Source: a virus
IMG/VR virus record: IMGVR_UViG_3300046692_000116
Location: 1-24,391 of that record
Length of the DNA stretch: 24,391 nucleotides
Strand: one strand, 5' to 3'
Shown here: positions 2,684 through 22,060 of the stretch, one piece after another
Layout: each line of letters opens with the position of its first letter
Numbering within the stretch: position 1 is the stretch's first letter
The notes under the pieces: generated by a model
The model's database searches: none
The model's input: only the letters and a program-made list of their open reading frames with translations
What the model was told of the DNA's origin: nothing
Program-made: the position numbers and the translations under genes

Positions 2684-2712
2684 AACTTATGCTATTTTGA
2701 CAAATTTGTCAA
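2684..2712 (-). promoter_or_regulatory. Leftward promoter with operator palindrome (copy 3)
   Basis: The perfect palindrome TTGACAAATTTGTCAA occupies 2697-2712. Read leftward, its first six bases are a consensus -35 (TTGACA), followed after 17 bases by TAAGTT as the -10. The same geometry is seen at 10635-10663 and 20956-20984. The palindrome lies inside the 3' end of the 2687-3244 coding region, so it also encodes residues near that protein's C-terminus. Confidence 0.75.
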
Positions 2713-3244
2713 GATTGTCGTTGGCGGCCGCAGCAAGCCAACCGCGGACTAGTGCGACAGTACGCGCTGCGGCTTCCGCCTCGGTGCACACGCGCAACGT
2801 GACGACAGGATGCCCCAGCGCTGCCAACAAGGGGTGGCGCACCTTCTGGCTATCCGTAAGCACACCTTCTGCGTTCTTGTACTCGATGAGGCGCAACTCT
2901 CCGCCAGGCAGATAGACGCGAAGATCTGGGTCGCCTGCCGCAATGCCGGTTGCCTTGGCTTTCATGCTCTCGTTGCGACTACGGCGACCTGCGTTCATGT
3001 CGCCGGCAATGGTGAATGACTTGCGGCCAATCTTGTCGTGGTCAGCTACGGCTTCAGCGTTGGCCGCATATTCCGGCATGGCGCGAAGAGCGCGCACCGC
3101 CGACGCCTGGAGCACCCATTCTTCGACGGGGGCGCTGGTTACCTTGACGCTCGTGCCGCCGGCCGATATCGTCGTTACGATCCTGACGCGCTTGCCTGCG
3201 ATGCGAGTCGTTTGGGTGGTGGTTTTTGCTTTGGACTTTTTCAT
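2687..3244 (-). CDS. VRR-NUC-type nuclease
   Basis: The 185-residue protein carries the VRR-NUC signature of the PD-(D/E)XK superfamily in its second half: GDPDLRVYL (catalytic Asp), LRLIEYKNAEG (the E-x-K pair), then LTDSQK and a following LLAALGHPVVTLRV strand. Members act as structure-specific or Holliday-junction-type nucleases and are common in phage replication modules. The N-terminal 80 residues are basic and low in recognisable motifs. I chose the ATG at 3244 because it is preceded by GGAGG at good spacing; the longer reading adds 11 residues without a ribosome site. The tail reads AAAANDN then a Lys-rich end encoded by the operator palindrome. It follows the iteron array and the Prim-Pol gene, which fits a role in processing replication intermediates. 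Confidence 0.8.
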   Translation of the reverse strand: MKKSKAKTTTQTTRIAGKRVRIVTTISAGGTSVKVTSAPVEEWVLQASAVRALRAMPEYAANAEAVADHDKIGRKSFTIAGDMNAGRRSRNESMKAKATGIAAGDPDLRVYLPGGELRLIEYKNAEGVLTDSQKVRHPLLAALGHPVVTLRVCTEAEAAARTVALVRGWLAAAANDNLDKFVKIA

Positions 3245-3264
3245 TTCAAAATCCCTCCAAGCAC

Positions 3265-3408
3265 CCATACAAACCATACACCCTAAAGGGTGTGTATGGA
3301 ATGTATGGCTAGATGCTCACTGATTTGTATGGTTTGTATGGCTGTCTGTATGGTTTGTATGGATGCCATACATTCCATACATGTATGGATTTTGTCTGGT
3401 TTGTATGG
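3265..3408. repeat. Iteron-like array of TGTATGG, candidate replication origin
   Basis: Twelve copies of the heptamer TGTATGG or its complement CCATACA lie in 144 bases. They start at 3265, 3274, 3293, 3302, 3326, 3335, 3347, 3356, 3366, 3375, 3382 and 3402. Most occur as pairs spaced exactly 9 bases apart, and both orientations occur. Near one end is the dyad ACACCC/GGGTGT around TAAA (3278-3294). The array lies directly after the Prim-Pol/helicase gene in an otherwise tightly packed operon. Clustered short direct repeats beside a replication initiator are typical of iteron origins; multiple binding sites for a regulator are the alternative. Confidence 0.65.
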
Positions 3409-3409
3409 C

Positions 3410-5548
3410 CTATAGCGGCCACACCAAATTGCCATTTTCGGCCACAAGTTCACGCTTTATGAGGGCCTTTTTTATCCGCATGAAGTTGGTCTGTTTCGTC
3501 CCCTGCGGCGTGCCTGGCTTCGTCAAATCGTAACGATCATAGACAGCTTCACGCCAGTCATTTTCTCGTACGACCATGATGTCGTCTGGGTATCTTGGCC
3601 CCGGTGGGCTATCCACACCGACGGTATGCTGCAACTCGCGAAGGATCTCCAGCGCCTCGGCTTCCTTCTTCCCTGCCTTGGCAACCAGATGCTCGCCGGC
3701 CGTTGGTTCTGCCGCGACGACCACGGGCGCCGTGGTGGGCTCTCCGTCCTCATCTACACCGATCTGTACCGACTTCATGGTGAAGGCTAGCACGTCGCCT
3801 TCCTCGCCATCGTTGGTGCCATCGCAGACAAGCCTATGCCTGCCGCCATCTTTTTTGACCATGAAGGACGCGTCCACAGCACCATCTAGATCGATAGCGC
3901 CCTTCCCTCGCTCGCCGCTCCACGAGCTGTGGTGGATCGCTGTGACGTGCGCTTTTGTCTCGGTAAGAATGTGGTCGCACGACCTGACAAACTTCACCAT
4001 GTCCTTGGATGCGTTCTGGTCGCCAGCACCGAAGACGCGCGTCAGTGTGTCGACGATCACCCAGACACATTTGTGGCCGGTGATGGTCTCTGCGTCCCTG
4101 ATGATCTTGATGACCTCTTCTGCGTCCTTTTGGTCGCGGGTGAAGTCAAGCATACCGCCCATGACAAGCAACGGCACGTCTTTGACGCCATGGTGCTTTC
4201 GGAACGCCATCATGCGTCGCTCAGTGAGCTTCTTACGCTCCGCCGCGACATAGACCACCAAGCCCTGCTGAACCTTGATACCGTGCCAATCCATGCCTGC
4301 TGCTATGTGGCACGCCAGATCGGTAGCAACGACGCTCTTGCCGGTTCCTGGCAGCCCTGAGATGGTGGTGAACTCACCAACACCTAGCCATCCTTTGAGG
4401 ATCGTCTCTTTGGGCTTTCCTTCCTCGATCTCATCGAACCACGTCAGATCGAATCGTTCACGCTTTTTTGGCGTGGTGGTCTCGGTGGCTGGTTGGGCTG
4501 CAGGTTGGGCTGCAGGTTGGGCAGATGCAGCCGCCTCCTTGGCCTTGGCGCGCTCTACGAATGCCGCTACGTCGGCGGGGTCTGAACCGTTGTCGTTGTC
4601 GTGCGACCGATCTGGTATTTGCCGCGGAGAATTGGCCGTCTTGTCCAGGCCTCGTTTAATCTTGTCAACGCACTTGCGCTCACCATCGGTGGCAATGAGT
4701 CCATTTGCGCTTGCCGCATCGATAAGACCAGCCTCAGCCTCGCTTCGACTTAGGTGGCCAGCGGCCACGAGCTCGCCTATGGAACACGCGCTGGCGAATA
4801 GTTGCTGGCCACGCTGGCCTTTTGGCGCTGTCGATAGCTTGGTGAGTTCCATGTCCATGGCTTTGGCCGCATAGCGTGCTGCACCTGTGTCTTCTGGCTG
4901 GTATGTGTATTCTCTCGGTTTGGATTCGGCGATAGGTGCCGACTTAGTGATGACCATATCAATAAGCCATGCTGGCGCATCTGCGAATTCGGGCATACCG
5001 TCGTCATCGTGGTTGATCCACTCATATCGTCGGCCGTCCGCCATGACGCTGCCAGGACCGACGATATAGCCGCCGTCCCCTCGAGTATCGACGCCAGGCG
5101 CGATAGCAGCACGATTGCGCACGCCGTCAACATGCTTGAACATGATGTGTGTGCCGCCGTTTGCCGTGGTGGCTCTGGCTGTTGGCGGCAATGGGCCATG
5201 CCTGGCTTCCATCTCGGCAAGCCATTTGTGGCCGTCACGATCGCCATGGCGATCTAAGTCAAGAACCCACACGCCTAGCGGGCTGCCTGTTGGCAAGCCT
5301 ATTAGCGCTGATGGATGGCGTTCGTTGAACCATATATCAATGATGCGGCTGGACCGCGTTGCATCATTTAGGCCAAATGAAGTATATGGAGCTTTTTCGA
5401 GGAACTCGATGATTTCGCCTGTGGCGTGGTCGATACCCTCGCTTGCTTGTTCACGGCAGGGGAAAACAGCAATGCCCGCAGCAATATAGCTACGGGCAAC
5501 GTCGAGAGGTGTGCGTGTGTTGGCGGGTAGTTTGAATGGTTGTGGCAT
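3410..5548 (-). CDS. Prim-Pol and RepA-like helicase fusion
   Basis: The 712-residue protein joins two replication enzymes. Residues about 15-200 match bifunctional primase-polymerase (Prim-Pol): a VLDLD catalytic Asp pair at 97 and 99, TANGGTH at 128-134 and a VDTRGDGGYIVGPGS stretch near 153. Residues about 385-600 are a RecA-fold ATPase of the AAA_25/RepA-helicase kind, with Walker A GLPGTGKS (398-405), Walker B VWVIVD (Asp 500), and a later AIHHSSW segment. An Ala/Gln/Pro linker with tandem repeats joins them, and a winged-helix-like C-terminus (residues 640-712) follows. It would prime and unwind phage DNA. The ATG at 5548 has GGGAGG just upstream. An iteron-like array begins two bases past the stop, so it may also be the origin-binding initiator. 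Confidence 0.9.
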   Translation of the reverse strand: MPQPFKLPANTRTPLDVARSYIAAGIAVFPCREQASEGIDHATGEIIEFLEKAPYTSFGLNDATRSSRIIDIWFNERHPSALIGLPTGSPLGVWVLDLDRHGDRDGHKWLAEMEARHGPLPPTARATTANGGTHIMFKHVDGVRNRAAIAPGVDTRGDGGYIVGPGSVMADGRRYEWINHDDDGMPEFADAPAWLIDMVITKSAPIAESKPREYTYQPEDTGAARYAAKAMDMELTKLSTAPKGQRGQQLFASACSIGELVAAGHLSRSEAEAGLIDAASANGLIATDGERKCVDKIKRGLDKTANSPRQIPDRSHDNDNGSDPADVAAFVERAKAKEAAASAQPAAQPAAQPATETTTPKKRERFDLTWFDEIEEGKPKETILKGWLGVGEFTTISGLPGTGKSVVATDLACHIAAGMDWHGIKVQQGLVVYVAAERKKLTERRMMAFRKHHGVKDVPLLVMGGMLDFTRDQKDAEEVIKIIRDAETITGHKCVWVIVDTLTRVFGAGDQNASKDMVKFVRSCDHILTETKAHVTAIHHSSWSGERGKGAIDLDGAVDASFMVKKDGGRHRLVCDGTNDGEEGDVLAFTMKSVQIGVDEDGEPTTAPVVVAAEPTAGEHLVAKAGKKEAEALEILRELQHTVGVDSPPGPRYPDDIMVVRENDWREAVYDRYDLTKPGTPQGTKQTNFMRIKKALIKRELVAENGNLVWPL
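4491..4522. repeat. 12-bp tandem repeat encoding the AQPA linker
   Basis: GGTTGGGCTGCA is repeated two and two-thirds times in a row. It encodes the flexible Ala-Gln-Pro linker between the primase and helicase halves of the 3410-5548 protein, so copy-number change would alter linker length in frame. Confidence 0.9.
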
Positions 5549-5569
5549 TAGTTCCTCCCAAAATAACGT

Positions 5570-5598
5570 TTGACAACTAGGTCATTATGTCCTAACTT
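5570..5598 (+). promoter_or_regulatory. Rightward promoter for the 5627-6045 island
   Basis: A consensus -35 TTGACA (5570-5575), a 17-base spacer and TAACTT (5593-5598) stand about 30 bases before the ATG at 5627. The -35 sits in TTTGACAA, similar to a half-site of the TTGACAAATTTGTCAA operator, so the same regulator might contact it weakly. Confidence 0.55.
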
Positions 5599-5626
5599 GA
5601 TCTCACCAACCAAGGAGACCACCACA

Positions 5627-5848
5627 ATGACTACTCCCGCTCTTGTCGCTGAAATGCTTGCTCGCCCGCTCACCCACAAGGTTGTAACGACGTGGTCTGA
5701 CGGGTCGACAAACGAATTGGCCGTGCGATCCTTGGCTCAGGCTAAAAATCATAAGATCACCATGTCTCACATGGCTGGCCGTGATCTCATTAGTCGCGAA
5801 ACTGGCGCAACGGTTAGGGTGACCTCCATAGAGATTGTTGCTCTTTGA
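5627..5848 (+). CDS. Hypothetical protein, 73 aa
   Basis: No family recognised. The start is set at the ATG at 5627, which follows AAGGAGACCACCAC, a rearranged form of the leader shared by other genes here; an upstream in-frame ATG at 5570 falls in the promoter. The protein is small and soluble-looking, with a TTWSDGSTNELAVRS segment. It is one of only two plus-strand genes inside the long leftward block and divergent from the Prim-Pol gene, so it probably has its own control. Confidence 0.7.
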   Translation: MTTPALVAEMLARPLTHKVVTTWSDGSTNELAVRSLAQAKNHKITMSHMAGRDLISRETGATVRVTSIEIVAL

Positions 5849-5850
5849 GT

Positions 5851-6045
5851 ATGACTCCCACCGAACTTGAGATGCGATGCCGCACATTGTTCGGCGCGAA
5901 CTGGCAAACGGCTTTCGCGCGCCACAGTGGAGTGGACGCGAGAACCGTTCGTAGATGGAAGGCTGGCACGACTGACGTGCCACCATGGGTTCCTGTGCTG
6001 CTTCACGCATGGGAGACGCTGCGGGCGCTTGGCAAGGACTGGTAG
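5851..6045 (+). CDS. Small HTH DNA-binding protein
   Basis: The 64-residue protein consists almost entirely of a helix-turn-helix: WQTAFARHSGVDARTVRRWKAGTTDVPPWV has the pattern of Cro/XRE-like phage and rhizobial regulators, with the recognition helix around RTVRRWK. The ATG at 5851 lies 2 bases after the upstream stop; a TTG at 5845 overlapping that stop is an alternative. The last 43 bases overlap, tail to tail, the end of the methyltransferase gene on the other strand. It probably regulates a nearby promoter, perhaps its own at 5570-5598. Confidence 0.7.
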   Translation: MTPTELEMRCRTLFGANWQTAFARHSGVDARTVRRWKAGTTDVPPWVPVLLHAWETLRALGKDW

Positions 6046-7598
6046 TTGTCGTTGGCAACAGTAGCAAGCGGCATGAGCGCAGCTATGCGCCGACCCAGCC
6101 ACGTAAACTTAGGCACGGCCCAACTATTGCCAAGTGCCTTGTAGCGTGGTCCATCGGCTGCCATGAGCCACCATTGCCCGTCGATCTTCTCCCACATGTC
6201 TTCCGGTCTGGTGCGCGTGATGCGGCGCGCCTTGTAACTGCGCATGGGGATGCGCGTATAGTTGTCGTCAAATCCTTGAAGGCGCTCACACTCCATAGGC
6301 GTAAGACGACGGACTGCTGAAGTGAGGACGTGTGGCTTATCACCACCGCCTTGGCTAGCTCGCAATGCTGTTGCGCCACCCATGAGGCGTACTTCATCAC
6401 GGCTGTTTTGAACAAAAGCGACAGCCGGCTGCATTGTTGTTTTTAGTGGCGGCGAAAACTCGTTGATCGGCATCCCCTGGGATGCCGATGCGTACCAATC
6501 AAATGCGACTATCGGGGCGCCGCGCCCCGATCCGTCTTCACTGGCATCATGGCCTTCGGCAGTAAGTGCGTGAGATATTTCGCCGGTTACGCAGACGGCA
6601 TTAGGACCTTTAGCCTTTATGGTCTGCGTGATTTCTTCTAAAACACCAAGGCCAGAACGTTCTCCTGGCGTGCCGTTTGCGCCTTCTCCAGATCTATCCA
6701 ATGCATCGCGGGCAATTGAATATGCTGTTCCTACAGCCACCATTGTCGTGGTTTCGTAGTCTTGCGAAGAGCCTTCGCGCGTTGCGTCGCAACGCGCGAT
6801 CTCAGGTGCATACACGGCCAGCGACTCGTGACTGTCCTGCTCACGCGCTCGAAGCGGGCCTATTCCTTCTCTCCAGTATCCATCGCCGCTACTTGCAAAG
6901 CCTTTTGCAGTTGCTCCGGCAACGTCTTTCCCCGCTTCTCGGCTCGGCGGAGGATGCCGGAACACGCTTTCGGGCTCAAAAAGAACCGCTGCGGGATCGG
7001 CCCCGTTTCCAAAATCTGCGACAACGAGCACACGCCTGCGTCGTTGGGCCACTCCGAAAAATTGGGCGTCCTTGACAGCCCACGCCGCCCGTCCTTTTGG
7101 TCCAGAGACCATACCGTGACGCGGCCATTTTCCTCTTGCCGGTGGTTCGATGGCGGCATCTGCGCCCACAAGTCCGGCGATGAAGCAGCCGAAGGCGTTG
7201 TCTTTGGTGCTGAGAACTCCGACGACGTTTTCCCAGACGACGTTCCGAAGTCCATTGCCATCTGCAAGCTCATGGGCCAGCCTCACGAATTCGAGTGAAA
7301 GATTGCCGCGCGCGTCGGCAAGTGATTGGCGAAGGCCGGCCACGCTGAACGCCTGGCAAGGCGTTCCACCGCATAGTATGTCGACGCGCCCTAATGTACG
7401 AACGTTGATCTTGGTGAAGTCGCCAAGGTTCGGTACGTCGGGATAGTGGTATGCCAGAACGGCTGATGGAAACTTTTCGATTTCCGAGAAGGCCACTGCC
7501 TGCCAGTTTAGTTCGCGCCAAGCGGCAGAAGCCGCTTCGATGCCGCTGCAAACCGAGAGGAAGCGCAGGCCAGGTTGGTTATCATTCGCGTGTTCCAT
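6003..7598 (-). CDS. C5 cytosine DNA methyltransferase
   Basis: All key motifs of C5-methyltransferases are present in the 531-residue protein: motif I FLSVCSGIEAAS (SAM binding, residues 13-24), motif IV GGTPCQAFS with catalytic Cys81, motif VI ENV (123-125), motif VIII QRRRR (185-189), a long target-recognition region of about 250 residues, motif IX RRLTPMECERLQGF, and motif X ALGNSWAVP. It would methylate cytosine in phage or host DNA; the target sequence cannot be read from sequence. I use the ATG at 7598, which overlaps the upstream stop (TGATG) and leads with MEHANDN; the longer form adds 18 residues inside the neighbouring gene. The C-terminal tail has a second NDN motif. No restriction enzyme lies nearby, so protection of phage DNA from host restriction is the likely role. 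Confidence 0.93.
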   Translation of the reverse strand: MEHANDNQPGLRFLSVCSGIEAASAAWRELNWQAVAFSEIEKFPSAVLAYHYPDVPNLGDFTKINVRTLGRVDILCGGTPCQAFSVAGLRQSLADARGNLSLEFVRLAHELADGNGLRNVVWENVVGVLSTKDNAFGCFIAGLVGADAAIEPPARGKWPRHGMVSGPKGRAAWAVKDAQFFGVAQRRRRVLVVADFGNGADPAAVLFEPESVFRHPPPSREAGKDVAGATAKGFASSGDGYWREGIGPLRAREQDSHESLAVYAPEIARCDATREGSSQDYETTTMVAVGTAYSIARDALDRSGEGANGTPGERSGLGVLEEITQTIKAKGPNAVCVTGEISHALTAEGHDASEDGSGRGAPIVAFDWYASASQGMPINEFSPPLKTTMQPAVAFVQNSRDEVRLMGGATALRASQGGGDKPHVLTSAVRRLTPMECERLQGFDDNYTRIPMRSYKARRITRTRPEDMWEKIDGQWWLMAADGPRYKALGNSWAVPKFTWLGRRIAALMPLATVANDNYQSLPSARSVSHA

Positions 7599-7981
7599 CA
7601 AAACGGCGCTTCCCTCAAAGCTTCCCGCACACCCTCTGCGCACCCTTGCCACGCCGCCTTGACCAGCATCAACTGCATGAGTTCGTCGAAATGCGCCAGT
7701 TCAGTCAGGCCGCCATTGGCTGCGATGAACTCGCCAACTCTCTCGACGCCCTTCTCGAGCGCCTTGACCTCATACAAACTAATCCTGTCCAACTTGGTTA
7801 GGTCTCCTGTTGCGACGATGCACGGTTTGCAGAGGTAGCCGGGGTCTTTATCTCCGGGTGTGCTGCGGCCAATGCCGAATGCTAGACACCCGCACGCCTT
7901 GCAAACAGTGGGGTTATGTTTCTCATCCACGGTCGGCGAGAATGGAATGATTGGCTTGCCTGTTGGTGGGAGCTTGGTCAT
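7598..7981 (-). CDS. Zinc-ribbon protein, DUF6511-like
   Basis: The 127-residue protein has a CKACGC pair and a YLCKPC pair about 25 residues apart, forming a probable zinc ribbon, followed by a helical half (YEVKALEKGVERVGEFI, then MLVKAAWQGCAEGVREALREAPF). The C-terminal pattern resembles the DUF6511 phage family, whose role is unknown. It overlaps its upstream neighbour by ATGA and its downstream neighbour by TGATG, so it is translated as part of the three-methyltransferase group and may assist or modulate them. Confidence 0.7.
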   Translation of the reverse strand: MTKLPPTGKPIIPFSPTVDEKHNPTVCKACGCLAFGIGRSTPGDKDPGYLCKPCIVATGDLTKLDRISLYEVKALEKGVERVGEFIAANGGLTELAHFDELMQLMLVKAAWQGCAEGVREALREAPF

Positions 7982-8811
7982 GCTGCATCACCAAAAAGCG
8001 AGAGTTGCGGCTGGCGGTTATCGTTTGCGGGAGCGGACACGGTTATTGCTGGCGCAACTATTGGTGTAGCCACGCACGCCTCTGTAAAGTCGACGCAGAC
8101 GATCTCGCACATCGGCGAAACACCTTTCCATGCATCTAGATAAAAAGATGTATCAACACCACAACCGGAATCGAAATGCAGGCCGGTTAGCTTTTGGAAC
8201 TTAACGGCTCTGCCTTCCTTCTGACGCTCGTAGTTCTGTCGGCCGCTATAGTTGAAGCCCGCAGACCCTTGCGGCACGATAAACGCGCCATAGTCAGCTA
8301 GGTGTGCGGCGATATCGATGACGTGAAACTCAAAATCCTTGCCGGTATAGCGCGGACTGTTGCGATCACGTCTGATGTTGCCAAATGGCGGATTGCTGAT
8401 CGCAGAATCGAAATGCCCCAGCCCCATCTCCAAAACGTCGAAAACATCGGCACAGATCCACTCTGCCTCTGGAAGCAGCTTTTGACCCACGGCCAAATAG
8501 TCTGGATTGCGCTCGATGCAGGTGATCTTGGGGCCGCCAGCCTTAAACCTGCTGCGCTGCCAAATGGCATATGATAGCATGCCAATACCGGCACACAGGT
8601 CGATGACGCGTCCTCCGCCGGCATCGATAGCGAAATCGAACGCCATATCGAACGGTGTGAAGAATGCGCCGGCTGCGCTGTTGATGTGCGTCGCGCCTTC
8701 ATGCCAGTTGCGATAGACGAACTCCTTGTCTTCCTCGGTTAGTGTTGGTTTGGTAAGGATGTCTAGCGCTTGGTTGTGGGCTCGCAGTTCTGGCTTCGTG
8801 AGTTTGGCCAT
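7978..8811 (-). CDS. N6-adenine-type DNA methyltransferase with clamp-binding tail
   Basis: The 277-residue protein has a SAM-binding motif I (IDLCAGIGMLS, residues 70-80), an acidic motif II (CIERNP) and the catalytic NPPF tetrapeptide (140-143) of amino-methyltransferases, most likely adenine-N6. The last residues are RQPQLSLFGDAA; QLSLF (269-273) matches the canonical bacterial beta-clamp-binding pentapeptide QL(S/D)LF. It is preceded by a flexible PANDN linker, so the tail is exposed and could tether the enzyme to replicating DNA. The window also encodes a beta clamp (14756-15814). It starts on the stop of the MT-A70 gene (TGATG). Confidence 0.88.
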   Translation of the reverse strand: MAKLTKPELRAHNQALDILTKPTLTEEDKEFVYRNWHEGATHINSAAGAFFTPFDMAFDFAIDAGGGRVIDLCAGIGMLSYAIWQRSRFKAGGPKITCIERNPDYLAVGQKLLPEAEWICADVFDVLEMGLGHFDSAISNPPFGNIRRDRNSPRYTGKDFEFHVIDIAAHLADYGAFIVPQGSAGFNYSGRQNYERQKEGRAVKFQKLTGLHFDSGCGVDTSFYLDAWKGVSPMCEIVCVDFTEACVATPIVAPAITVSAPANDNRQPQLSLFGDAA

Positions 8812-9383: not shown

Positions 9384-9431
9384 CTTGTCTCCTCAGACTG
9401 TGGTGGTGTCCCGCGCGTTGGTGGCGCGCGG
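9384..9431 (-). promoter_or_regulatory. Start-associated leader with hairpin (CCACCAA loop)
   Basis: Read leftward, stem CCGCGCG/CGCGCGG closes the 7-base loop CCACCAA (9411-9431), followed by CACCACCAC and GAGGAGAC before the MT-A70 start. No U-tract follows, so it is not a standard terminator. The same loop tops hairpins at 19080-19104 and, with one change, 15840-15864. Confidence 0.65.
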
Positions 9432-9445
9432 TTATACGTGGATAG

Positions 9446-9607
9446 CTAGGCTATGAGGCAAACAGCCGCGAAGATAAGGGCAGTCAATATAACCGCCAGT
9501 GCATATGTAAGCAGGGCGCCCAAGATTCCGATTTTGAAGGCGGTCAAGGCGAAGGAAAACGACACGACTGCGACAAGAATAGCGTACCCGAGGATGCGTT
9601 TAGCCAT
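9446..9607 (-). CDS. Small membrane protein, 53 aa
   Basis: A 53-residue hydrophobic protein with two predicted membrane helices, roughly residues 5-23 (a LGYAILVAVVSFSFALTAF stretch) and 29-52, joined by a short turn. The ATG at 9607 overlaps the upstream stop as TGATG and has GGGGAGG at good spacing, which supports real translation. The function cannot be inferred. Similar coupled two-helix mini-proteins occur at 16333-16494 and, with one helix, 23701-23826. Confidence 0.75.
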   Translation of the reverse strand: MAKRILGYAILVAVVSFSFALTAFKIGILGALLTYALAVILTALIFAAVCLIA

Positions 9608-10356: not shown

Positions 10357-10397
10357 GCGGAGACCACACGGTAGGCGATGATGTCACCTTCGCAATG

Positions 10398-10598: not shown

Positions 10599-10634
10599 AA
10601 TCGTCTCCTCAGTCGTGGTGAATTTGGTACGGTC

Positions 10635-10663
10635 ACACTAGTCAATTTTGACAAATTTGTCAA
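10635..10663 (-). promoter_or_regulatory. Leftward promoter with operator palindrome (copy 2)
   Basis: TTGACAAATTTGTCAA occupies 10648-10663. Leftward, TTGACA is the -35 and TAGTGT, 17 bases on, the -10. It follows the helicase stop after an 8-base G run, and drives the 10398-10598 gene and those beyond. Confidence 0.75.
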
Positions 10664-10674
10664 GCCGCCCCCCC

Positions 10675-12432: not shown

Positions 12433-12605
12433 CAAGCCGCCTCGCTGCGTGCCTGAGTGGCCGCATCGATCTGCGCCAATCTAATCGCGTTCTCGCGCAC
12501 GACGATCCAGCCAGCAGCGCGCAGTGCGGCTAGCTGCTCGACGGTGATGATGTCGCGCGGGTGTTTGGCGCCGGTGGCGACAACGGCCCGTACAGCCACA
12601 CTCAT
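12432..12605 (-). CDS. Hypothetical protein, 57 aa
   Basis: A 57-residue reading frame fills the gap between the sigma-like and helicase genes exactly, with ATGA overlap at its start and TGATG overlap at its end. This tight coupling is the main evidence that it is real. The sequence has an Ala/Val-rich start and a TVEQLAALRAAGWIVV segment that could form a small helix-turn-helix or other helical fold. I recognise no family. Confidence 0.7.
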   Translation of the reverse strand: MSVAVRAVVATGAKHPRDIITVEQLAALRAAGWIVVRENAIRLAQIDAATQARSEAA

Positions 12606-13093
12606 GCCGCAGCCCTCAACCGCAACCGCTCCTTCTCGGTGATCTGCCGCGCACGCTCACGGCCAACGCCAATTCTCGCGCCGATCTGCTCTAGTGTGTC
12701 GCCCATGGCGCGCCGCAACAACGCACGGCCGCCACGGCCAGACATGTCAGCAAGTGTCGACGACAGTTCTGCACACTTTTCCTGCTCTGGCTGCACGGCG
12801 CAGTTAAGCATGGCGCGCTCGTCGGATACGGTTGGCATGTAGCTTGAGCGCAATTGCGCCTTGCGCCGGCAGTTCTGTGCGACATGCCGCATGCATAGGG
12901 TGATCCAGTTATAAAAGCCGCCATCGGGACGGAACGACGTCCAATGGCTAAGGACATATGCAATGGTGTCCTGCATCAGGTCTTCCTGCTCCGTCCTGCT
13001 GTTCGTTAGCTTGTATGCGAGCCGGCGCAGATGCGGATAATAGCTCATCAGGCGCGCGTCGAATTCGGGCGGACGTTGTGCGGTGGTGGTCAT
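12602..13093 (-). CDS. Sigma-70-family (ECF-like) sigma factor
   Basis: The 163-residue protein has the two domains of a small sigma factor. Region 2 spans about residues 15-80, with LRRLAYKLTNSRTEQEDLMQDT matching the core-binding 2.1-2.2 helices, and WITLCMRHVAQNCRRK fitting 2.4. Region 4 spans about 115-160: LEQIGARIGVGRERARQITEK is a clear region 4.2 helix-turn-helix that would contact a -35 element. Phage sigma factors redirect host polymerase to later promoters. I cannot see a matching promoter family in this window. It leads a transcription unit: its leader has CACCAC, GAGGAGAC and an upstream hairpin. No anti-sigma gene is adjacent. Confidence 0.82.
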   Translation of the reverse strand: MTTTAQRPPEFDARLMSYYPHLRRLAYKLTNSRTEQEDLMQDTIAYVLSHWTSFRPDGGFYNWITLCMRHVAQNCRRKAQLRSSYMPTVSDERAMLNCAVQPEQEKCAELSSTLADMSGRGGRALLRRAMGDTLEQIGARIGVGRERARQITEKERLRLRAAA

Positions 13094-13146
13094 TGTCGTC
13101 TCCTCTTGTGGTGAAACCTCGGACTTTGGTGCTTAGTGCAGAGGTT
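13094..13146 (-). promoter_or_regulatory. Start-associated leader with hairpin
   Basis: Leftward, stem AACCTC/GAGGTT (13115-13146) closes a larger loop containing CACCAA, followed directly by CACCAC and GAGGAGAC before the sigma-like gene start. It is less regular than the hairpins at 9411, 15840 and 19080 but has the same order of parts. Confidence 0.5.
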
Positions 13147-13151
13147 TTGTA

Positions 13152-14751: not shown

Positions 14752-14755
14752 GGCC

Positions 14756-15814: not shown

Positions 15815-15864
15815 GGTAGTCTCCTCTTGTGTGGTGGTAGCCGCACGGTTGGCGGCCGTGCGGC
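15815..15864 (-). promoter_or_regulatory. Start-associated leader with hairpin (CCGCCAA loop)
   Basis: Leftward, stem GCCGCACGG/CCGTGCGGC closes the loop CCGCCAA (15840-15864), then comes CACCAC and GAGGAGAC before the clamp start. The loop differs by one base from that at 9411-9431 and 19080-19104 while the stem sequence is different, as expected for a conserved loop on a variable stem. Confidence 0.65.
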
Positions 15865-15871
15865 GTGCTGA

Positions 15872-16276
15872 CTAGGCGGCGACCGCAACTGGTGTGATGG
15901 TCGCGCCGTTGCGTTGCGTGTGGAAGGTCCACGTCTTTCCAGGGTGCGCGGCAAGCCATGCAGCTACGGCTGTCTCGATAGCGTTGCCGAGAGAAAGGTG
16001 AGGTTTTTCGTATTCGGCCCAAGGATCGTCTGGGCCATCTTCACCGAAGCACTCGTCGTTGCGATCGATGATGTCTTCCATGATCCGTTCGGCGTAGGCT
16101 TCGCCATCGACGTATGAGGACATCACCGTCTTGTCGGCCTCGACAACGTAGAAAGGCTCACCCTCAAAGTCGCCTTCGCCGACCCGAATGGCTTCCTCAC
16201 GGCTATCGTATGGCCCTTGGAAGACCTCGGCATCTTCGGAGTCTGCTACCCACCATTTGAAATTCTTGTCGCCCAT
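15872..16276 (-). CDS. Hypothetical acidic protein, 134 aa
   Basis: No family recognised. The N-terminal half, FKWWVADSEDAEVFQGPYDSREEAIRVGE, has the pattern of small phage proteins in which a beta hairpin leads into a helix. The middle is acidic (DRNDECFGEDGPDD) and the C-terminus AAWLAAHPGKTWTFHTQRNGATI looks like a second small domain. It has its own leader: a hairpin, CACCAC and AGGAGA upstream of the ATG at 16276. Confidence 0.75.
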   Translation of the reverse strand: MGDKNFKWWVADSEDAEVFQGPYDSREEAIRVGEGDFEGEPFYVVEADKTVMSSYVDGEAYAERIMEDIIDRNDECFGEDGPDDPWAEYEKPHLSLGNAIETAVAAWLAAHPGKTWTFHTQRNGATITPVAVAA

Positions 16277-16326
16277 ATTTGCTTCTCCTGCGTGGTGAAT
16301 GGCGGCCCGCTGGTGACGAGCCGCCA
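16277..16326 (-). promoter_or_regulatory. Start-associated leader with hairpin
   Basis: Leftward, stem TGGCGGC/GCCGCCA, then a one-pair mismatch and two further pairs, close the 7-base loop TCACCAG (16300-16326). CACCAC and AGGAGA follow before the ATG at 16276. The loop keeps the CACCA core seen in the other leader hairpins. Confidence 0.5.
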
Positions 16327-16332
16327 GGTTGG

Positions 16333-16494
16333 TTATGCGAAGAAGCCGCCAGAATACAGCAGGCCCATCTCAATACCGACTGAAACGATAGCGCCCCAAA
16401 AGCTCCAGTTGCCTTTGGGCTCACCGTGCTTCACGCCAGCAATCGCCACAGATACGGCACTAAGCGCAATCAGGGTTACTTGCGGCCAACCCAT
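16333..16494 (-). CDS. Small membrane protein, 53 aa
   Basis: A 53-residue protein with two hydrophobic segments, about residues 5-20 (VTLIALSAVSVAIAG) and 32-53 (FWGAIVSVGIEMGLLYSG), separated by a polar GVKHGEPKGNW turn. The ATG overlaps the stop of the DUF669-like gene as TGATG. The function is unknown; as a coupled mini membrane protein it resembles the one at 9446-9607. Confidence 0.72.
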   Translation of the reverse strand: MGWPQVTLIALSAVSVAIAGVKHGEPKGNWSFWGAIVSVGIEMGLLYSGGFFA

Positions 16495-17108
16495 CACTTG
16501 CTACCCCAAGGCCGCCGGCCCGTAGCCGCAGTAGCCGCAGAAGCGGCCTGCCGTTGCGCTGGTGCGGGCTTGTTGTCATTGGCCGCAGCAGGCGCCTCAT
16601 TGCGCTTCTTGCCTTGCGTGCCGTCACCAATGATGCCTATTTCCGGAACAGGCTCCTTGGCAGCGTCGTCGGTGTAGAAGAACCGCTCGATCTGGTTTTT
16701 GTCCTTGTAGAACGTCCCATCCGGCTTCTTGTTGCCGATCTGAATGCCGACCTCGGCGACGAACGACTTGAACAGCAAATCGTCTGTGTCGGTGTCTGCG
16801 GTGATCTCCTCGCCGACGGCTCGACCGAATCTATCGAACATCGGCTTGCCGTATTTGTAGGCGCCGTGCTGGTAGCCATCGGAATGGATGATGGTCCAGT
16901 ATGCCCAGAACTTGCGGCCCTTGAGTTCTTCAGGCGCGATTACCTCGAACGTGATTTCAGCTTGGAAACCCTTGGTGTCTGTTGTTGCCGGAAGGTTGAT
17001 AGCCTCTGCCTGAAGCTGGGCATACATGTGTGGCAGGATACCGCCGCCACCGCCCTGCTTTTCGGTGTTCTCGAAATCCGCTTCGTAGTTATTCCCGATC
17101 TTAGCCAA
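16494..17108 (-). CDS. DUF669-like ssDNA-binding/recombination protein, TTG start
   Basis: The 204-residue protein resembles DUF669, a phage family that binds single-stranded DNA and works with Sak-type recombinases: ITFEVIAPEELKGRKFWAYWTI and FDRFGRAVGEEI match its GRK-type core, and the C-terminal 60 residues form an Ala/Lys-rich flexible tail with AAANDNKP. The start is a TTG: AAGGAGAC, preceded by CACCAC, stands 3 bases before TTG-GCT-AAG, and the frame to an upstream ATG (17171) would put 21 extra residues across the leader and into the neighbour's end. Unlike typical SSB, it lacks an acidic DDDIPF tip; that tip is on the helicase instead. Confidence 0.78.
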   Translation of the reverse strand: MAKIGNNYEADFENTEKQGGGGGILPHMYAQLQAEAINLPATTDTKGFQAEITFEVIAPEELKGRKFWAYWTIIHSDGYQHGAYKYGKPMFDRFGRAVGEEITADTDTDDLLFKSFVAEVGIQIGNKKPDGTFYKDKNQIERFFYTDDAAKEPVPEIGIIGDGTQGKKRNEAPAAANDNKPAPAQRQAASAATAATGRRPWGSK

Positions 17109-17130
17109 AATAGTCTCCTTAGTGTGGTGT

Positions 17131-17322
17131 TTATGCGGCCCGCGACAGGTCTTTCGCGCGGGCTGTGGCAAGCCGCTTGTCGGTAAACAAGAGTGGCTTG
17201 TTGTCGTTGGTGACGTGAGCCCAAAGATTGCGCTCTACTTTTGCTTCAATGCCGTACTGGCCGTTGTCCTCCGTGTAGACGCGGTGTTTGCGGCCTTTGA
17301 CTGGGTTGCAGAAGGCGATCAT
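17131..17322 (-). CDS. Hypothetical protein, 63 aa
   Basis: A small basic protein with a GRKHRVYTEDNGQYGIEAKVERN beta-rich core and a C-terminal Arg/Lys/Ala helix. It includes the VTNDNKP variant of the NDN motif. Its ATG overlaps the stop of the Sak4-like gene as ATGA, so it is translated with it. No family recognised; its position between the two recombination genes suggests an accessory role. Confidence 0.72.
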   Translation of the reverse strand: MIAFCNPVKGRKHRVYTEDNGQYGIEAKVERNLWAHVTNDNKPLLFTDKRLATARAKDLSRAA

Positions 17323-18140
17323 GCCGCTTCTGCCTCGGCCACGCCGTTGAACGGAGCCGGGAAGAACTTCGAAAGCTCTTTGTATCCTTGGCCCTTGCGG
17401 TAGGTGATGGCGTCCGGCATGGAATAGCGATTCTTCGCGACGAATCCGGCTCCTTCGGTCAAGTGGATCTGGCGCTCCTTGCCGCCCTCTGCGTGGGTTA
17501 CCTCCTTCTTGACGCCGACTTCCTTCGACTTCAGGGAAACCCGGTAATTCAAGAATCCAACGATGTCGCTGCGTTCGCGAATAAGCGCAGCTCCGCGCTT
17601 GCGAAGTTTCACTTGATACCGGTCGTATGGGTCAGTCACTGGGCTGTCGAAACGCTTGATCTCTGGGTGGGCCAGAATGACAACAGCAATGCCGCGTTCA
17701 TTGAGCGCTTCGCACGCACCCATGAATTCGCCCCATTCGACATCCCCCTGAACGTCGCCCTGCCCAAATGCGGCCGGCGACCCCTTGTCGTTTGAGCCGA
17801 TGGAATCTGCGCCGATACGAAGGCATGTTGCGGCATTGACGATTGGTTCAATGCCATCGGCGCTGTCGAATATCACGGTTTGGAAATCGTGATCTTCGGT
17901 GATCAACTCCCCGACGATCTCCTTCAGCGAATCCCAATCCTCGATGACTTCCGATGGGAGGTCCACATCGGCAGGCGGCTTCTCGCCGTGGGAGTGCAGA
18001 TAAATAGCGTTCGGGAACTCGGCAGCAAGACTGGTCTTGCCAACGCCATCGACGCCATACAGCAGAACGGTAGGTGGATTGGTTGATGTCTGTGTAGTTC
18101 GCTTTAATCGCGACAGTCTCGACTTGTAGCCTTCGGACAT
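17319..18140 (-). CDS. Sak4-like AAA ATPase (phage recombinase)
   Basis: The 273-residue RecA-fold ATPase has Walker A GVDGVGKTS (29-37), a VIFDSADG Walker B, and a sensor-like VVILAHPEIKRF. Its length and overall layout match the Sak4/AAA_24 phage family, which anneals or assists strand exchange together with DUF669/SSB partners and an exonuclease. All three kinds of partner occur downstream in this operon. The ATG at 18140 has AAGGAGAA at good spacing. Confidence 0.85.
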   Translation of the reverse strand: MSEGYKSRLSRLKRTTQTSTNPPTVLLYGVDGVGKTSLAAEFPNAIYLHSHGEKPPADVDLPSEVIEDWDSLKEIVGELITEDHDFQTVIFDSADGIEPIVNAATCLRIGADSIGSNDKGSPAAFGQGDVQGDVEWGEFMGACEALNERGIAVVILAHPEIKRFDSPVTDPYDRYQVKLRKRGAALIRERSDIVGFLNYRVSLKSKEVGVKKEVTHAEGGKERQIHLTEGAGFVAKNRYSMPDAITYRKGQGYKELSKFFPAPFNGVAEAEAA

Positions 18141-18152
18141 GCTTTCTCCTTC

Positions 18153-18530
18153 CTAATGAAAATAGATGATGGCTGCGATGAACGCCAAAGCCAGGATTGC
18201 CGGAACCCAGCTGAATGGATCAGGCCAGCCGCTTGCAGCCTTTGTACCCAGCGGCAACTCTATGGCGGCCGCCTCGCGCTCGTTGAGCCAGTCGCCCAAC
18301 TTGTTGCCGGCCCAGACGAAGCTGTACATCACCGCAAGTGCGACGGCACCAACACCGAGTGACGGAAAGAAGAAGACAGACACGAACGCCGCGGCAATGA
18401 GGCTTGCCGTGATGGCGCGGCGAATGACGGGCGCCGTGAAGGTAGTTTTGGCGGTGGCGCGAACTGGCGCGTCGATCGACACGTAGTCCAGCGGTGTGCC
18501 GGTGATTGGTGGTAGGACGCGGATGTTCAT
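18153..18530 (-). CDS. Membrane protein, 125 aa
   Basis: The 125-residue protein has a polar N-terminus of about 38 residues, then hydrophobic segments near 41-55 (SLIAAAFVSVFFFPS), 57-72 (GVGAVALAVMYSFVW) and 108-124 (VPAILALAFIAAIIYF), so about three membrane spans. No family recognised. It is coupled to the RNA ligase gene upstream (ATGA overlap). The role is unknown. Confidence 0.75.
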   Translation of the reverse strand: MNIRVLPPITGTPLDYVSIDAPVRATAKTTFTAPVIRRAITASLIAAAFVSVFFFPSLGVGAVALAVMYSFVWAGNKLGDWLNEREAAAIELPLGTKAASGWPDPFSWVPAILALAFIAAIIYFH

Positions 18531-19066
18531 GCTGCCACCCCTTTCGGTGTGTCGTCGTTCTCAGCCAGCACCTTGTAGAGATGGCTGGACGCGGTCATAA
18601 ACACGATGATGCCTTCGGGCTTCATGAAGCCAGGCGCAGCCTGTGAGCCGGTTTCCTTCAGGACGTCGAGCACCTGATCGACGGTGTCAGTTGCGAATTG
18701 GCCGACATAGAGAAGCGGCACGACATCACAACATGCAGGCCGTGTCGCGGGATCTGACCACCGGCCGGTATTGAAGAGCGAGAACCTCTTTTCATTGAGG
18801 CCGTAGTTGCGCTGAATGCCGTTGCCCCACCATTCGCCGAAGTGCTGACCGACGCCAAGCTTGAGCAACTCTTCTTTGTTGCGCTCAACCCAGCCAGCAA
18901 AACCGTAGTTGTCGGCATCCGGCGTGATCCAGCGATTGCGGCTGCCGGCGCGCACCGATCCATCTTCGCCGATGACGACCTGAGCGTTGGTGCCATCGAT
19001 CTTCTCGGTGATGATGCAGCCTCTCTTGAGGCGGGGAATTTTCGGAAATGCAATGAAGTCGGTCAT
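18527..19066 (-). CDS. Compact RNA ligase
   Basis: The 179-residue protein has the nucleotidyltransferase motifs of RNA ligases: motif I EKIDGTN with the adenylated Lys22, FGEWWGNGIQR (motif III region, Glu78), RFSLFNTG, motif IV EGIIVF (151-156) and motif V YKVL (Lys165). It would join RNA ends, for example in tRNA repair after host anticodon nuclease attack. It is small for the family, a bare catalytic core without a C-terminal domain. No polynucleotide kinase is visible in this window. A leader with a 9-bp CCACCAA-loop hairpin and GAGGAGAC precedes its ATG. Confidence 0.85.
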   Translation of the reverse strand: MTDFIAFPKIPRLKRGCIITEKIDGTNAQVVIGEDGSVRAGSRNRWITPDADNYGFAGWVERNKEELLKLGVGQHFGEWWGNGIQRNYGLNEKRFSLFNTGRWSDPATRPACCDVVPLLYVGQFATDTVDQVLDVLKETGSQAAPGFMKPEGIIVFMTASSHLYKVLAENDDTPKGVAA

Positions 19067-19117
19067 ATGTCTCCTCTCAGCCGTGCGCTTGGTGGGCGCA
19101 CGGCGTTGCTGTGGTGG
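19067..19117 (-). promoter_or_regulatory. Start-associated leader with hairpin (CCACCAA loop)
   Basis: Leftward, CCACCAC (19117-19111) is followed by stem GCCGTGCGC/GCGCACGGC with loop CCACCAA (19080-19104), then GAGGAGAC before the RNA ligase start. The loop is identical to that at 9411-9431. Here CACCAC comes before the hairpin rather than after it. Confidence 0.65.
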
Positions 19118-19132
19118 CTGGTTTGGTAGTGG

Positions 19133-19204
19133 TCAGTCGAGAAGGAAGGCCATAAACAGTAGCCATCCCCAACCATCATGGCCGCTTACGGTCGAAGCGG
19201 TCAT
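19133..19204 (-). CDS. Possible 23-aa coupled mini-protein
   Basis: A 24-codon frame begins with an ATG overlapping the upstream stop as ATGA and encodes a short polar start followed by a hydrophobic GWGWLLFMAFLL segment. Coupling and membrane-like composition support it, but at this length chance cannot be excluded. Confidence 0.42.
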   Translation of the reverse strand: MTASTVSGHDGWGWLLFMAFLLD

Positions 19205-20259
19205 GCTGCACGAAGAACTGAGCGTGTCACGGTCTCGGTGACGGTGTCAGCGATCTTACTATCCGCAAGAACGAAGACGCCGAACTCCTGGCCGGGATGC
19301 TTGAGCGCCAAGCGGCTAGCCTCGGCAGCTGCCGTTGCTTGGTCGATGTGAACGCATGGGCGCGTTGCTGGCTTGGGCTGGCCGTTCTCGATGAGGGCGA
19401 CGATGGCTGTGGGTTTTCGTTTGGGCAAGATTGTGGAGAAGAGCACAAGATCATCAGGCGACTCGGTACTAATGCCATTGTCGCCACCAAGATTAACTTG
19501 GATGCCCCAACTAAACACATTGATGACCGTCGCCCTCTTGCCTCGAGCCGAAGAGCCGTAGTCATCGCGAAACTTCACAATATCACCAACCTTGAACTTG
19601 GCCAGCGCAACGGCGGGCTCGTCGACCCATTCGGCGATGATGTCGTTGGCGAGTTCGGTTGTCTTATCTGTGCGCGACGATTGCCTGCCGTCGTTGGCCC
19701 AAACGGCGCTAGACCAGTTGTCGCTTGTTCCGAATGTCGCGACGTCTCCACCGATGAAAGCCGGCCCGACCTTGCGACCGTCGCGCGTCTTGTAGTAGCC
19801 GCCGGCGGTGATGGTGAGGGGTGCTGAAGTCGTGACAACGGCGGCGGCGACGGGTGCGGGCCGCAGATCTTCAGTCGAGATGAGCCAATGGTCGTTTCCT
19901 GTGTTGCCGTAGAGATTTACGCCATCGTGGCCTTTGCGCCATGTGTCGAACTTGACCATGGTCAATCCGCTATAATGGCTGACGCCATCCTCAACGACAG
20001 TACCGACTTCGCCGCGGGTGTCACCGTCGTCAGAAACAACACGATCGCCGACCTTCGGCTGCCAGACTGCCGGAGCGGCAGTCACGAGTTCCAGATAGCG
20101 AGCGAAGTTGAACTGATCGTCACCGCCCTTGTCGGGTTTTACGCGGCAGTCTCCTTCCGCATCAACCTCGGTAACCGTTCCGGTGTCGCCGATCTTCATT
20201 TCTTCGCTATTCAAATAGCGAATGCGCCGCACTCTATCGCCAACCTTAAACTTACCCAT
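19201..20259 (-). CDS. Multi-domain KOW/SH3-like protein
   Basis: The 352-residue protein is built from repeated small beta-barrel segments. Three begin with a KVGD phrase: FKVGDRVRRIRYLNSEE near residue 4, PKVGDRVVSDDGDTRGEVGTV near 70 and FKVGDIVKFRDDYG near 225. A further related segment, with RDGRKVGPAF, lies between the second and third. Each reads like a KOW or SH3-like barrel with a GTV/ATVI strand. A C-terminal alpha-beta part (TRPCVHIDQATAAAEASRLAL) follows. Such barrels bind nucleic acid or proteins; the actual partner is unknown. The ATG at 20259 overlaps the upstream stop (TGATG). Confidence 0.78.
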   Translation of the reverse strand: MGKFKVGDRVRRIRYLNSEEMKIGDTGTVTEVDAEGDCRVKPDKGGDDQFNFARYLELVTAAPAVWQPKVGDRVVSDDGDTRGEVGTVVEDGVSHYSGLTMVKFDTWRKGHDGVNLYGNTGNDHWLISTEDLRPAPVAAAVVTTSAPLTITAGGYYKTRDGRKVGPAFIGGDVATFGTSDNWSSAVWANDGRQSSRTDKTTELANDIIAEWVDEPAVALAKFKVGDIVKFRDDYGSSARGKRATVINVFSWGIQVNLGGDNGISTESPDDLVLFSTILPKRKPTAIVALIENGQPKPATRPCVHIDQATAAAEASRLALKHPGQEFGVFVLADSKIADTVTETVTRSVLRAA

Positions 20260-20552
20260 CACGCTGCTCCTTCCGTTGGTGTGCCCGGCGTAAAAATCCG
20301 ACGCTTGGTGAAATCGACTTGAACGACGTTGTCATCCACGGCCTGCTTGGTGGCGACGGGTGGCGTAGGCACGTCGTCGTCATCGACGAGGTCAAGCTCC
20401 CATTCGTGGAACTGCAGAACCTCCAACGTAGGCGCCACACGGACGAGAACGATGGTTCCCATGAAGCCGATGACTATGCCGAAAACATTGGTATTCATCT
20501 TGTGCTCGACGACGTCGCCGAGCTCGATGCAATCGCAATCAGGGCAACTCAT
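20259..20552 (-). CDS. Small protein with Cys motif and SH3-like core
   Basis: The 97-residue protein starts with CPDCDC, then ELGDVVEHKMNTNVFGIVIGFMGTIVLVRV, which has the strand pattern of the KOW/SH3-like repeats in the next gene, suggesting a common origin. An acidic Pro-rich linker and a basic FTKRRIF end follow. It is coupled at both ends (ATGA and TGATG). The function is unknown. Confidence 0.72.
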   Translation of the reverse strand: MSCPDCDCIELGDVVEHKMNTNVFGIVIGFMGTIVLVRVAPTLEVLQFHEWELDLVDDDDVPTPPVATKQAVDDNVVQVDFTKRRIFTPGTPTEGAA

Positions 20553-20893
20553 GCCGCCACCCGCAAGGCATATTCCGTCACAACGGCGCCAGCCCGCATA
20601 TCTTCGTCGACATGGTTGTCATTGGCAGCCACGCGCACCACGCTTACGGGCATTCGTCCGGATGTCGTCGAACAGCCGCCATTATGTGCGACCAAACGAG
20701 TAACGCGATCTGGATTGTTGTCGTTGGCCGCTCTGGGAGCGCCGCGCGGAATGCCCGCGCCGTATGATCTGTTCAGGCGCTTGTAGATCGCGGAAGGTTT
20801 CATGTTCCATAGTTTGGCGATCTGGGCGATACTCACCCCTTCCGCCTTCATGGCATACATATCGGCCGTAGCCGCATCACTTCTGAGCTGCAT
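20549..20893 (-). CDS. HTH protein, first gene of the leftward operon
   Basis: The 114-residue protein has a helix-turn-helix of resolvase/homeodomain-like type near residues 13-42: YAMKAEGVSIAQIAKLWNMKPSAIYKRLNR. The remainder is a flexible tail with two NDN motifs (RAANDNN, VAANDNH). As the first gene after the leftward promoter, it is well placed for a role in early regulation or replication control. The ATG at 20893 follows GAGGAGAC by 3 bases, with CACCAC further upstream. Confidence 0.75.
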   Translation of the reverse strand: MQLRSDAATADMYAMKAEGVSIAQIAKLWNMKPSAIYKRLNRSYGAGIPRGAPRAANDNNPDRVTRLVAHNGGCSTTSGRMPVSVVRVAANDNHVDEDMRAGAVVTEYALRVAA

Positions 20894-20942
20894 GGTGTCT
20901 CCTCATTTTAGGCGTGGTGTTGCCAACGAACGGTGACCGTTG
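20894..20942 (-). promoter_or_regulatory. Leader of the leftward operon, with dyads
   Basis: Leftward, CAACG/CGTTG (20924-20942) can form a hairpin; it also contains the dyad AACGGT-G-ACCGTT (20929-20941) that could be a protein site. CACCAC and GAGGAGAC follow before the 20893 start, the same order as in the other leaders. Confidence 0.55.
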
Positions 20943-20967
20943 ACAATTAGTCTGAATGCTATATCAA
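20940..20967 (+). promoter_or_regulatory. Rightward promoter for the 21003 regulator
   Basis: TTGACA (20940-20945), a 16-base spacer and TATCAA (20962-20967). The operator palindrome begins 2 bases after the -10, so a bound regulator would block the start site: autoregulation is likely. Confidence 0.6.
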
Positions 20968-20984
20968 TTTGACAAATTTGTCAA
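20956..20984 (-). promoter_or_regulatory. Main leftward promoter with operator palindrome (copy 1)
   Basis: TTGACAAATTTGTCAA occupies 20969-20984. Leftward, TTGACA is the -35 and TAGCAT, after 17 bases, the -10. It faces the rightward promoter at 20940-20967, so one operator covers both promoters, like a classical phage control region. Confidence 0.78.
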
Positions 20985-21002
20985 GATTTACGGAATTACT
21001 GC

Positions 21003-21581
21003 ATGTCTCGTTTCTCCCAGATGTTGATTGAAGAGATGAAAGCCAGAGAGGTAAGCGAAAGTGTCGTGGCCACTGAGTTCGGCTGGACCAAGCAGGCTTT
21101 CAATACTTGGAAGAATGGCGTTATGCCTAGAAAGCAATGGTTCGGCCCACTGTCTCGTTTTCTTCATATATCGATCGACGATGTCGAATCGATCACCAAC
21201 GAAGCGCGCAGGGGCATAGCATCTGGTCTTGTGGGTCGCGTGACAGACCGCAAAGACGGAAGGTTTCATTTCGATGGCATACCGTCCGACCGCTACGCGT
21301 TCTCGGTTGACACCAAGGTCATGGAGCCTGCGCTTGTGCTTGGCGCCAAGGCATGGGCTCAGCCTGGCGTCTGGCCGCAAATCGGCAATGAAGTTATAGC
21401 GCATGCGCGCGGTGGATCGGCGTGGATCGGCCGGCTTTCCGGTATGGAGAACGGCGCGGCGATATTGAATAGGCATGCTGCGCCGGAGATTACCGTCCGT
21501 GGCGTTCAGGCAGTCCATGTGATTGTCCTTTCTGAACGGCTGGCCGGTGGTGGCGTCAGTTATGGCGCCAAGGAGAAATAA
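21003..21581 (+). CDS. HTH regulator with catalytically dead S24-like domain
   Basis: The 192-residue protein has an N-terminal helix-turn-helix (about residues 16-40; VVATEFGWTKQAFNTWKNGV) and a C-terminal part with the outline of the LexA/CI S24 fold: YAFSVDTKVMEPALVLGAKAW, then GGSAWIGRLSG and VHVIVLSER. In S24 peptidases the first would read G-D-S-M-x-P and the second x-I-K-R-L. Here the Ser position is Val106 and the Lys position Gly143, so self-cleavage is not expected. The gene is bracketed by copies of TTGACAAATTTGTCAA, making it the best candidate to bind that operator. SOS-type induction would have to act through another route. Confidence 0.75.
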   Translation: MSRFSQMLIEEMKAREVSESVVATEFGWTKQAFNTWKNGVMPRKQWFGPLSRFLHISIDDVESITNEARRGIASGLVGRVTDRKDGRFHFDGIPSDRYAFSVDTKVMEPALVLGAKAWAQPGVWPQIGNEVIAHARGGSAWIGRLSGMENGAAILNRHAAPEITVRGVQAVHVIVLSERLAGGGVSYGAKEK

Positions 21582-21582
21582 C

Positions 21583-21599
21583 TTGACAAATTTGACAAA
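21583..21599 (+). promoter_or_regulatory. Variant operator and possible rightward promoter
   Basis: TTGACAAATTTGACAA (21583-21598) differs from the palindrome at one base, which turns it into a direct repeat of TTGACAAA with a 9-base period. TTGACA followed after 18 bases by TAATGG could be a rightward promoter reading into the structured gene-free region. Confidence 0.5.
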
Positions 21600-21925: not shown

Positions 21926-22060
21926 GGAGGACCTGCGCCTTTCGGCGCGAAAACTCTTCTGACGGTTGGTTCCTTTTCGGTGTGCCGCATGCTTTTGATC
22001 CTTTCTTTCGCTCTTGTTTGGCGTGTCGGCTTCTGGTGGCCGCTTAATAATCACCCTTTT

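Follow-up and report, generated by a model that had tools for sequence, protein, structure and literature searches.

The 16-bp palindrome TTGACAAATTTGTCAA is probably, judging from sequence comparison, an operator recognised by a second repressor of the phage, the product of the gene starting at 21003. It would be placed in the -35 element of host-type promoters, with the C repressor acting separately and with a linked RNA complementary to gene leaders. The window, meaning the whole stretch of DNA analysed here, is the 24,391-base virus record IMGVR_UViG_3300046692_000116, positions 1 to 24,391. Its early region resembles that of Rhizobium phage 16-3 and its relatives: the 21003 protein matches 16-3 p070 at 45% and the 22132 protein matches 16-3 C at about 40%. 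Among the leftward genes are those for an RNA-ligase-like protein, Sak4, a sliding clamp, a Cas4 exonuclease, a sigma-like factor, a helicase, an exonuclease, methyltransferases and a primase-polymerase, and a gene at the resolvase/VRR-NUC position.

Exact copies of TTGACAAATTTGTCAA lie at 2697–2712, 10648–10663 and 20969–20984, and a fourth copy, TTGACAAATTTGACAA, with one mismatch, lies at 21583–21598, which confirms the coordinates of the preliminary description. No other similar site was found in the window within three mismatches. The statement that none would be expected by chance also holds, as shuffled sequences gave an expectation of 0.07 when every site with three mismatches or fewer was counted, and none of 100 shuffles reached four. 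Each site has the half-site arrangement ACAA-N2-TTGT. An exact 16-bp search of IMG/VR alone returned mostly scattered single matches, partly due to chance, and such matches are informative only where one contig has several sites. One viral contig (L074) carries three exact copies (1760, 2144, 2913) inside 1.2 kb.

All three exact copies read leftward as TTGACA-N17-TAnnnT, just as had been described, with the palindrome supplying the -35, a 17-base spacer and a -10 starting with TA; the rightward reading of the same three sites has no TAnnnT at this spacing. Operator-promoter 1 (20956–20984, minus strand) combines the palindrome at 20969–20984 with the -35 TTGACA at 20984–20979 and the -10 TAGCAT at 20961–20956, and is predicted to serve the early genes from 20893 to about 10675. 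A sigma-factor-like gene (12602–13093) lies within this operon. Operator-promoter 2 (10635–10663, minus strand; palindrome 10648–10663, -35 TTGACA, -10 TAGTGT at 10640–10635) would drive the exonuclease, methyltransferase and primase-polymerase genes. Operator-promoter 3 (2684–2712, minus strand; palindrome 2697–2712, -35 TTGACA, -10 TAAGTT at 2689–2684) is predicted to serve the last leftward genes (P0005, 1381–2367 and the tRNA array). Its palindrome falls within the final codons of the leftward ORF that comes before it (2687–3277), and its -10 takes in the TAA of that ORF. Five tRNA genes (Met, Pro, Thr, Ser, Ser) are found at 377–794, at the end of the block behind this promoter. The leader CACCAC...GAGGAGA...ATG follows each of the three leftward promoters and thereby fixes the gene starts at 2645, 10598 and 20893.

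The core of the palindrome, ACAAATTTGT, is present in 7, 7, 8, 6 and 8 copies in phages 16-3, NV1.1.1, AP-16-3, RHph_TM3_3_14B and RHph_X2_25, respectively, against an expectation of about 0.03 per 16-3-type genome. The five genomes have 36 copies in total, whereas 159 other palindromes of similar composition occur 0.06 times on average. Among IMG/VR records, each of the 22 in which a p070 homologue is encoded carries 2–9 copies of ACAAATTTGT, and the reversed word used as a control occurred once in all of them together. In the relatives the sites are found at the three positions of the window, beside the regulator, after the helicase gene and after the VRR-NUC gene. The search for the same word upstream of the same genes, proposed earlier as a check, gave a positive answer. 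The -35/-10 geometry is the same in these five phages and in about 30 further phage or prophage loci. Of 108 oriented sites, 33 have TAnnnT at spacer 17, the next-best spacing giving at most 14. This sharing of word, gene positions and promoter geometry supports the earlier suggestion that a single regulator may act on three promoter-embedded operators. A literature search for the word returned unrelated papers only; an earlier description in subscription papers is possible.

Could the word be a promoter motif only, i.e. a strong -35 with its spacer, read by sigma70 of the host or by the sigma-like protein of the phage (12602–13093) with no repressor involved? The perfect TTGACA, the 17-bp spacer to TAnnnT and the presence of the sigma-like gene would fit. 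However, the palindrome exceeds the -35, reaching 16 bp in the clade of the window, and promoters need no such extension. In addition, the regulator gene is flanked by sites on both sides, and in 16-3, NV1.1.1, AP-16-3, TM3 and X2_25 the regulator-side site is kept though it has no TAnnnT at spacer 17. We therefore consider this explanation improbable. Still harder to credit are L5-style roadblocks (stoperators) or a maintenance or partition repeat in place of promoter operators. Either would agree with repeats that are scattered between genes and have a single cognate DNA-binding protein, but the sites are symmetric, the promoter geometry is strict and no oriented run of sites exists within the operons. 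TTGACAAATTTGTCAA is a perfect palindrome and so lacks the asymmetry of L5 stoperators; sites of that type were rejected because the sites here are symmetric and located at promoters.

Two proteins, those encoded at 21003 and 22132, had been put forward as candidate regulators, and the comparison favours the first. The gene at 22132..22857 (plus strand) codes for a C repressor homologue that retains both residues needed for cleavage, Ser and Lys. This protein has predicted operators of its own, ACTAAWYCGGT, at 22061–22071 and 22086–22096 (region 22056..22096) and at 22861–22871 and 22879–22889 (region 22861..22902). These four sites flank the C gene, with 0.02 expected. As read from the sequence, a leftward promoter (TTGACA 22084–22079, TAAAAG 22061–22056) lies among the former and a rightward one (TTGACA 22874–22879, TATCAA 22897–22902) at the latter. 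The ACTAAWYCGGT sites occupy the places of OR and OL of 16-3 and differ from them in sequence, indicating a different immunity type. Across the relatives, a C helix of the form QSQKT.SDWE pairs with ACTAAWYCGGT and a helix QQA.NNLF with ACAA-N4/N6-TTGT, and ACAAATTTGT is constant among phages whose C helix and C operators differ. The forms ACAA-N4-TTGT and ACAA-N6-TTGT, typical of 16-3 C operators, are absent from the window.

That the C repressor itself binds the palindrome, its ACAA-type recognition being stretched to a 2-bp spacing, appears about as improbable as a bare promoter motif, or slightly more so. C proteins are HTH repressors, and the C operators of 16-3 are likewise built of ACAA/TTGT half-sites (N4, N6). 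Against this, the C protein of the window has a different recognition helix and the four other predicted operators, and the C operators vary among relatives while ACAAATTTGT does not. Moreover, no ACAAATTTGT copies were found in two phages that have a C homologue and no detected p070 homologue, and the 16-bp form tracks the helix of the p070-type protein and not the type of C. C was consequently rejected as the binder of the palindrome, and the cleavable C repressor is best explained, from its sequence and sites, as a separate layer acting at its own operators.

Since C has its own operators, which vary between relatives while ACAAATTTGT remains constant, the 21003 protein (P0001; 21003..21581, plus strand), a repressor of the 16-3 p070 family with an HTH and an S24 fold and the proposed regulator of all four sites, is the likely binder. 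In the loci carrying a homologue of it (35–98% identity), a site lies 25–84 bp upstream of the start in 33 of 33 cases, one with a mismatch, and in 16 of them an exact ACAAATTTGT core lies 2–47 bp after the regulator stop. Where the 21003-type helix has Lys30, 16 of 19 sites show the full 16-bp form, against 0 of 65 where it does not. This correlation amounts to one event, as all members with Lys30 share one origin. Two phages whose C is of another type (L138, L142) also combine Lys30 with the 16-bp form, and this form is absent from a locus that has the window-type C but a Gln30 helix (L150). This co-occurrence and the Lys30 link speak for the 21003 protein; the 22132 protein, a C repressor with different operators, drops out.

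An N-terminal HTH is present in P0001 (AlphaFold helices 3–54; the profile matches the HTH of LexA and of the 434 repressor). The top Foldseek matches of its C-terminal S24 fold are LexA and lambda CI (mean pLDDT of the model 87), and profile comparison with the C family gave a probability of 99.5%. P0001 thus has the HTH and the S24 fold of self-cleaving repressors of the LexA/CI type but not their catalytic Ser and Lys. Val106 stands in place of the Ser (Val, Ile or Leu in the homologues), and the Lys is replaced by Gly143, which is invariant in 29. Because this pair has been lost, SOS self-cleavage should not inactivate the protein. From its sequence and model, we infer a repressor that controls its own gene and withstands SOS cleavage; an activator role would also be compatible with the sequence alone. 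Two points weigh against the repressor reading: no rightward promoter of its own is obvious for the gene in the window, and in 16-3 the site beside p070 has no clean -35/-10 toward p072.

The fourth operator copy, as judged from its sequence, is not a leftward promoter and reads rightward (21583..21612, plus strand; -35 at 21583–21588, spacer 18, -10-like TAATGG at 21607–21612) into a conserved structured RNA at 21617..21758 (plus strand). This copy is kept behind the regulator in nearly all of the 32 loci inspected, where, with one exception, 11–12 of the 12 positions of TTGACAAATTTG are matched, and a conserved non-coding element comes after it. The RNA is composed of three stem-loops with unpaired UGUGGUG, GUCUCCUC and GGUGGUG. 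In the alignment 88% of the cells are paired, compared with at most 49% for slid structures, and 17 pairs show two-sided changes, a value reached in none of 500 shuffles. Folded alone, the RNA of the window is not unusually stable (z −1.05), and the structure is visible from the alignment only.

A covariance model found exactly one copy of the RNA in each of the five phages, always behind p070, and none in two control phages; it also recovered three members left out of it (L154, L165, L166). The RNA was found in 9 of 297 Rhizobiaceae genomes, in five of the nine right behind a regulator homologue, and host genomes have one copy each, at the prophage locus. No Rfam family matched the element, with cut-offs of E = 10 for the window and E = 0.1 for five relatives. 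A host sRNA was rejected given the single copy per host genome in a prophage locus and the lack of an Rfam family, and a small leftward ORF at the element was rejected as neither its frame nor its length is conserved. Relatives of the RNA occur in more distant prophages (L188, L190, L191, L192) with no ACAAATTTGT core nearby, and by sequence the RNA family is wider than the ACAAATTTGT regulon. The interval separating the RNA element from C contains two strong, GC-rich hairpins (21782–21817 and 21891–21917), possible terminators for convergent transcripts.

The motif CACCAC-N0-14-GAGGAG occurs eight times in the window (0.03 expected), each time before a gene start. On the minus strand these leaders precede the starts at 20893 (P0003; 20899..20919), 15814 (sliding clamp; 15821..15836), 13093 (sigma-factor-like; 13100..13113), 10598 (10605..10620), 9383 (DNA methyltransferase; 9389..9408) and 2645 (P0005; 2651..2666). 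On the plus strand they precede those at 22954 (22933..22945), behind the predicted C-controlled promoter, and 24049 (24021..24040). In 18 genomes or loci, a start codon follows the leader in 138 of 138 instances, 95 of which read GAGGAGAC, the exact complement of the unpaired GUCUCCUC of the RNA; the GUGGUG loops are complementary to the CACCAC of the leader. The RNA thus has what is expected of a trans-acting anti-Shine-Dalgarno sRNA, an unpaired segment complementary to the ribosome-binding site of its targets. In three host genomes of 5–7 Mb, the leader was located on the prophage-carrying contig in 17 of 17 cases (two genomes) and in 2 of 3 (the third). Duplexes of the RNA with leaders are better than with other gene starts (Mann–Whitney p = 0.0003), single duplex energies being modest and only modestly better than those of shuffles. 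As the RNA carries complements of the CACCAC-GAGGAGAC-AUG leader, it probably represses the translation of leader-bearing early genes.

It is rather unlikely, though more plausible than the alternatives considered for the palindrome, that the element is instead a cis structure in the 3' region of the P0001 mRNA, or an opposite-strand decoy. It does lie directly downstream of the P0001 stop, and CACCAC and GAGGAGAC are present on the opposite strand. But the element has its own -35/-10 in the orientation of P0001, wobble pairs favour the strand of the regulator (67 GU vs 13 AC cells), and on that strand a U-run closes the last hairpin of several relatives. A trans-acting sRNA remains our preferred interpretation.

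Taken as observed are the sites, their geometry, conservation and co-occurrence, their separation from the C operators, the RNA covariation and the sequence complementarity; from these we infer binding, repression, timing and RNA action as follows. A dimer of the 21003 repressor on its operator would cover the -35 and exclude RNA polymerase, shutting the three leftward early operons at once. The repressor would also act on its own upstream region and block the promoter directly behind its gene, which would make a structured RNA of roughly 120–200 nt. Upon loss of the repressor, early mRNAs and the RNA would rise together, and the latter would limit translation of the former. Another possibility is that lysogens obtain the RNA by read-through from the repressor gene.

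A more general proposal, to which we give an even chance, is that 16-3-type phages have a two-storey early control outside C immunity. An SOS-insensitive repressor would use operators forming the -35 of all early promoters, and an sRNA from a promoter with the same operator would pair with CACCAC-GAGGAGAC-AUG leaders. As the operator is common to phages with different C specificities, this repressor–sRNA unit would cross-regulate heteroimmune relatives. If so, a second repressor, which should persist despite SOS cleavage and is conserved across C specificities, governs the early genes, which makes questions of induction (how is it relieved?) and of cross-immunity testable.

A dispersed promoter-operator regulon as such is, by analogy, of a known kind. 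Phages P1 (C1) and phiC31 (conserved inverted repeats) have dispersed promoter operators. As in these phages, several copies of one operator overlap separate predicted early promoters in the window; the repressors and sites are unrelated, and here a second repressor stands beside a C-type one together with a linked RNA. The comparison with L5 made in the preliminary description is valid as an idea, one repressor with genome-dispersed sites, but not in kind: in L5 a repressor monomer binds asymmetric 13-mers, which also stop elongation (PMC9283540), whereas the sites here are palindromes serving as -35 elements. Also close is the C repressor of 16-3 with OL/OR, from the same phage group, with the same gene order, an HTH/S24-type repressor and promoter-overlapping operators. 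Phage 16-3 is a long-studied repressor–operator model, and its GenBank record (NC_011103) annotates operators for C only, ACAA-N4/N6-TTGT sites around c. Unlike these, the ACAAATTTGT sites are unannotated there, are dispersed over the early genes and would be assigned, by sequence, to p070.

The RNA resembles P1 c4, an antisense RNA that targets the ant mRNA (PMC12197685), in that both are phage RNAs whose loops complement a ribosome-binding region; it differs in that it would match many leaders of one phage and in having no Rfam match. It shares with the alpha-r14/NfeR1 sRNAs a hairpin structure with an unpaired anti-Shine-Dalgarno motif. However, alpha-r14 has three CCUCCUCCC motifs (PMC10746234), whereas the RNA of the window has one GUCUCCUC and two GUGGUG, is prophage-borne and has no Rfam match. 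The start-associated sequences of cluster K mycobacteriophages, a phage-specific repeat just before start codons (PMC3203893), are like the CACCAC leader in kind and other in sequence. Here a candidate complementary RNA is present, a concrete candidate for what reads start-associated leaders, a question left open in other phages. What would be new in the 16-3-type system, compared with those above, is the coupling with an apparently non-cleavable second repressor, whose presumed sites stay constant where C specificities differ, and with a linked RNA.
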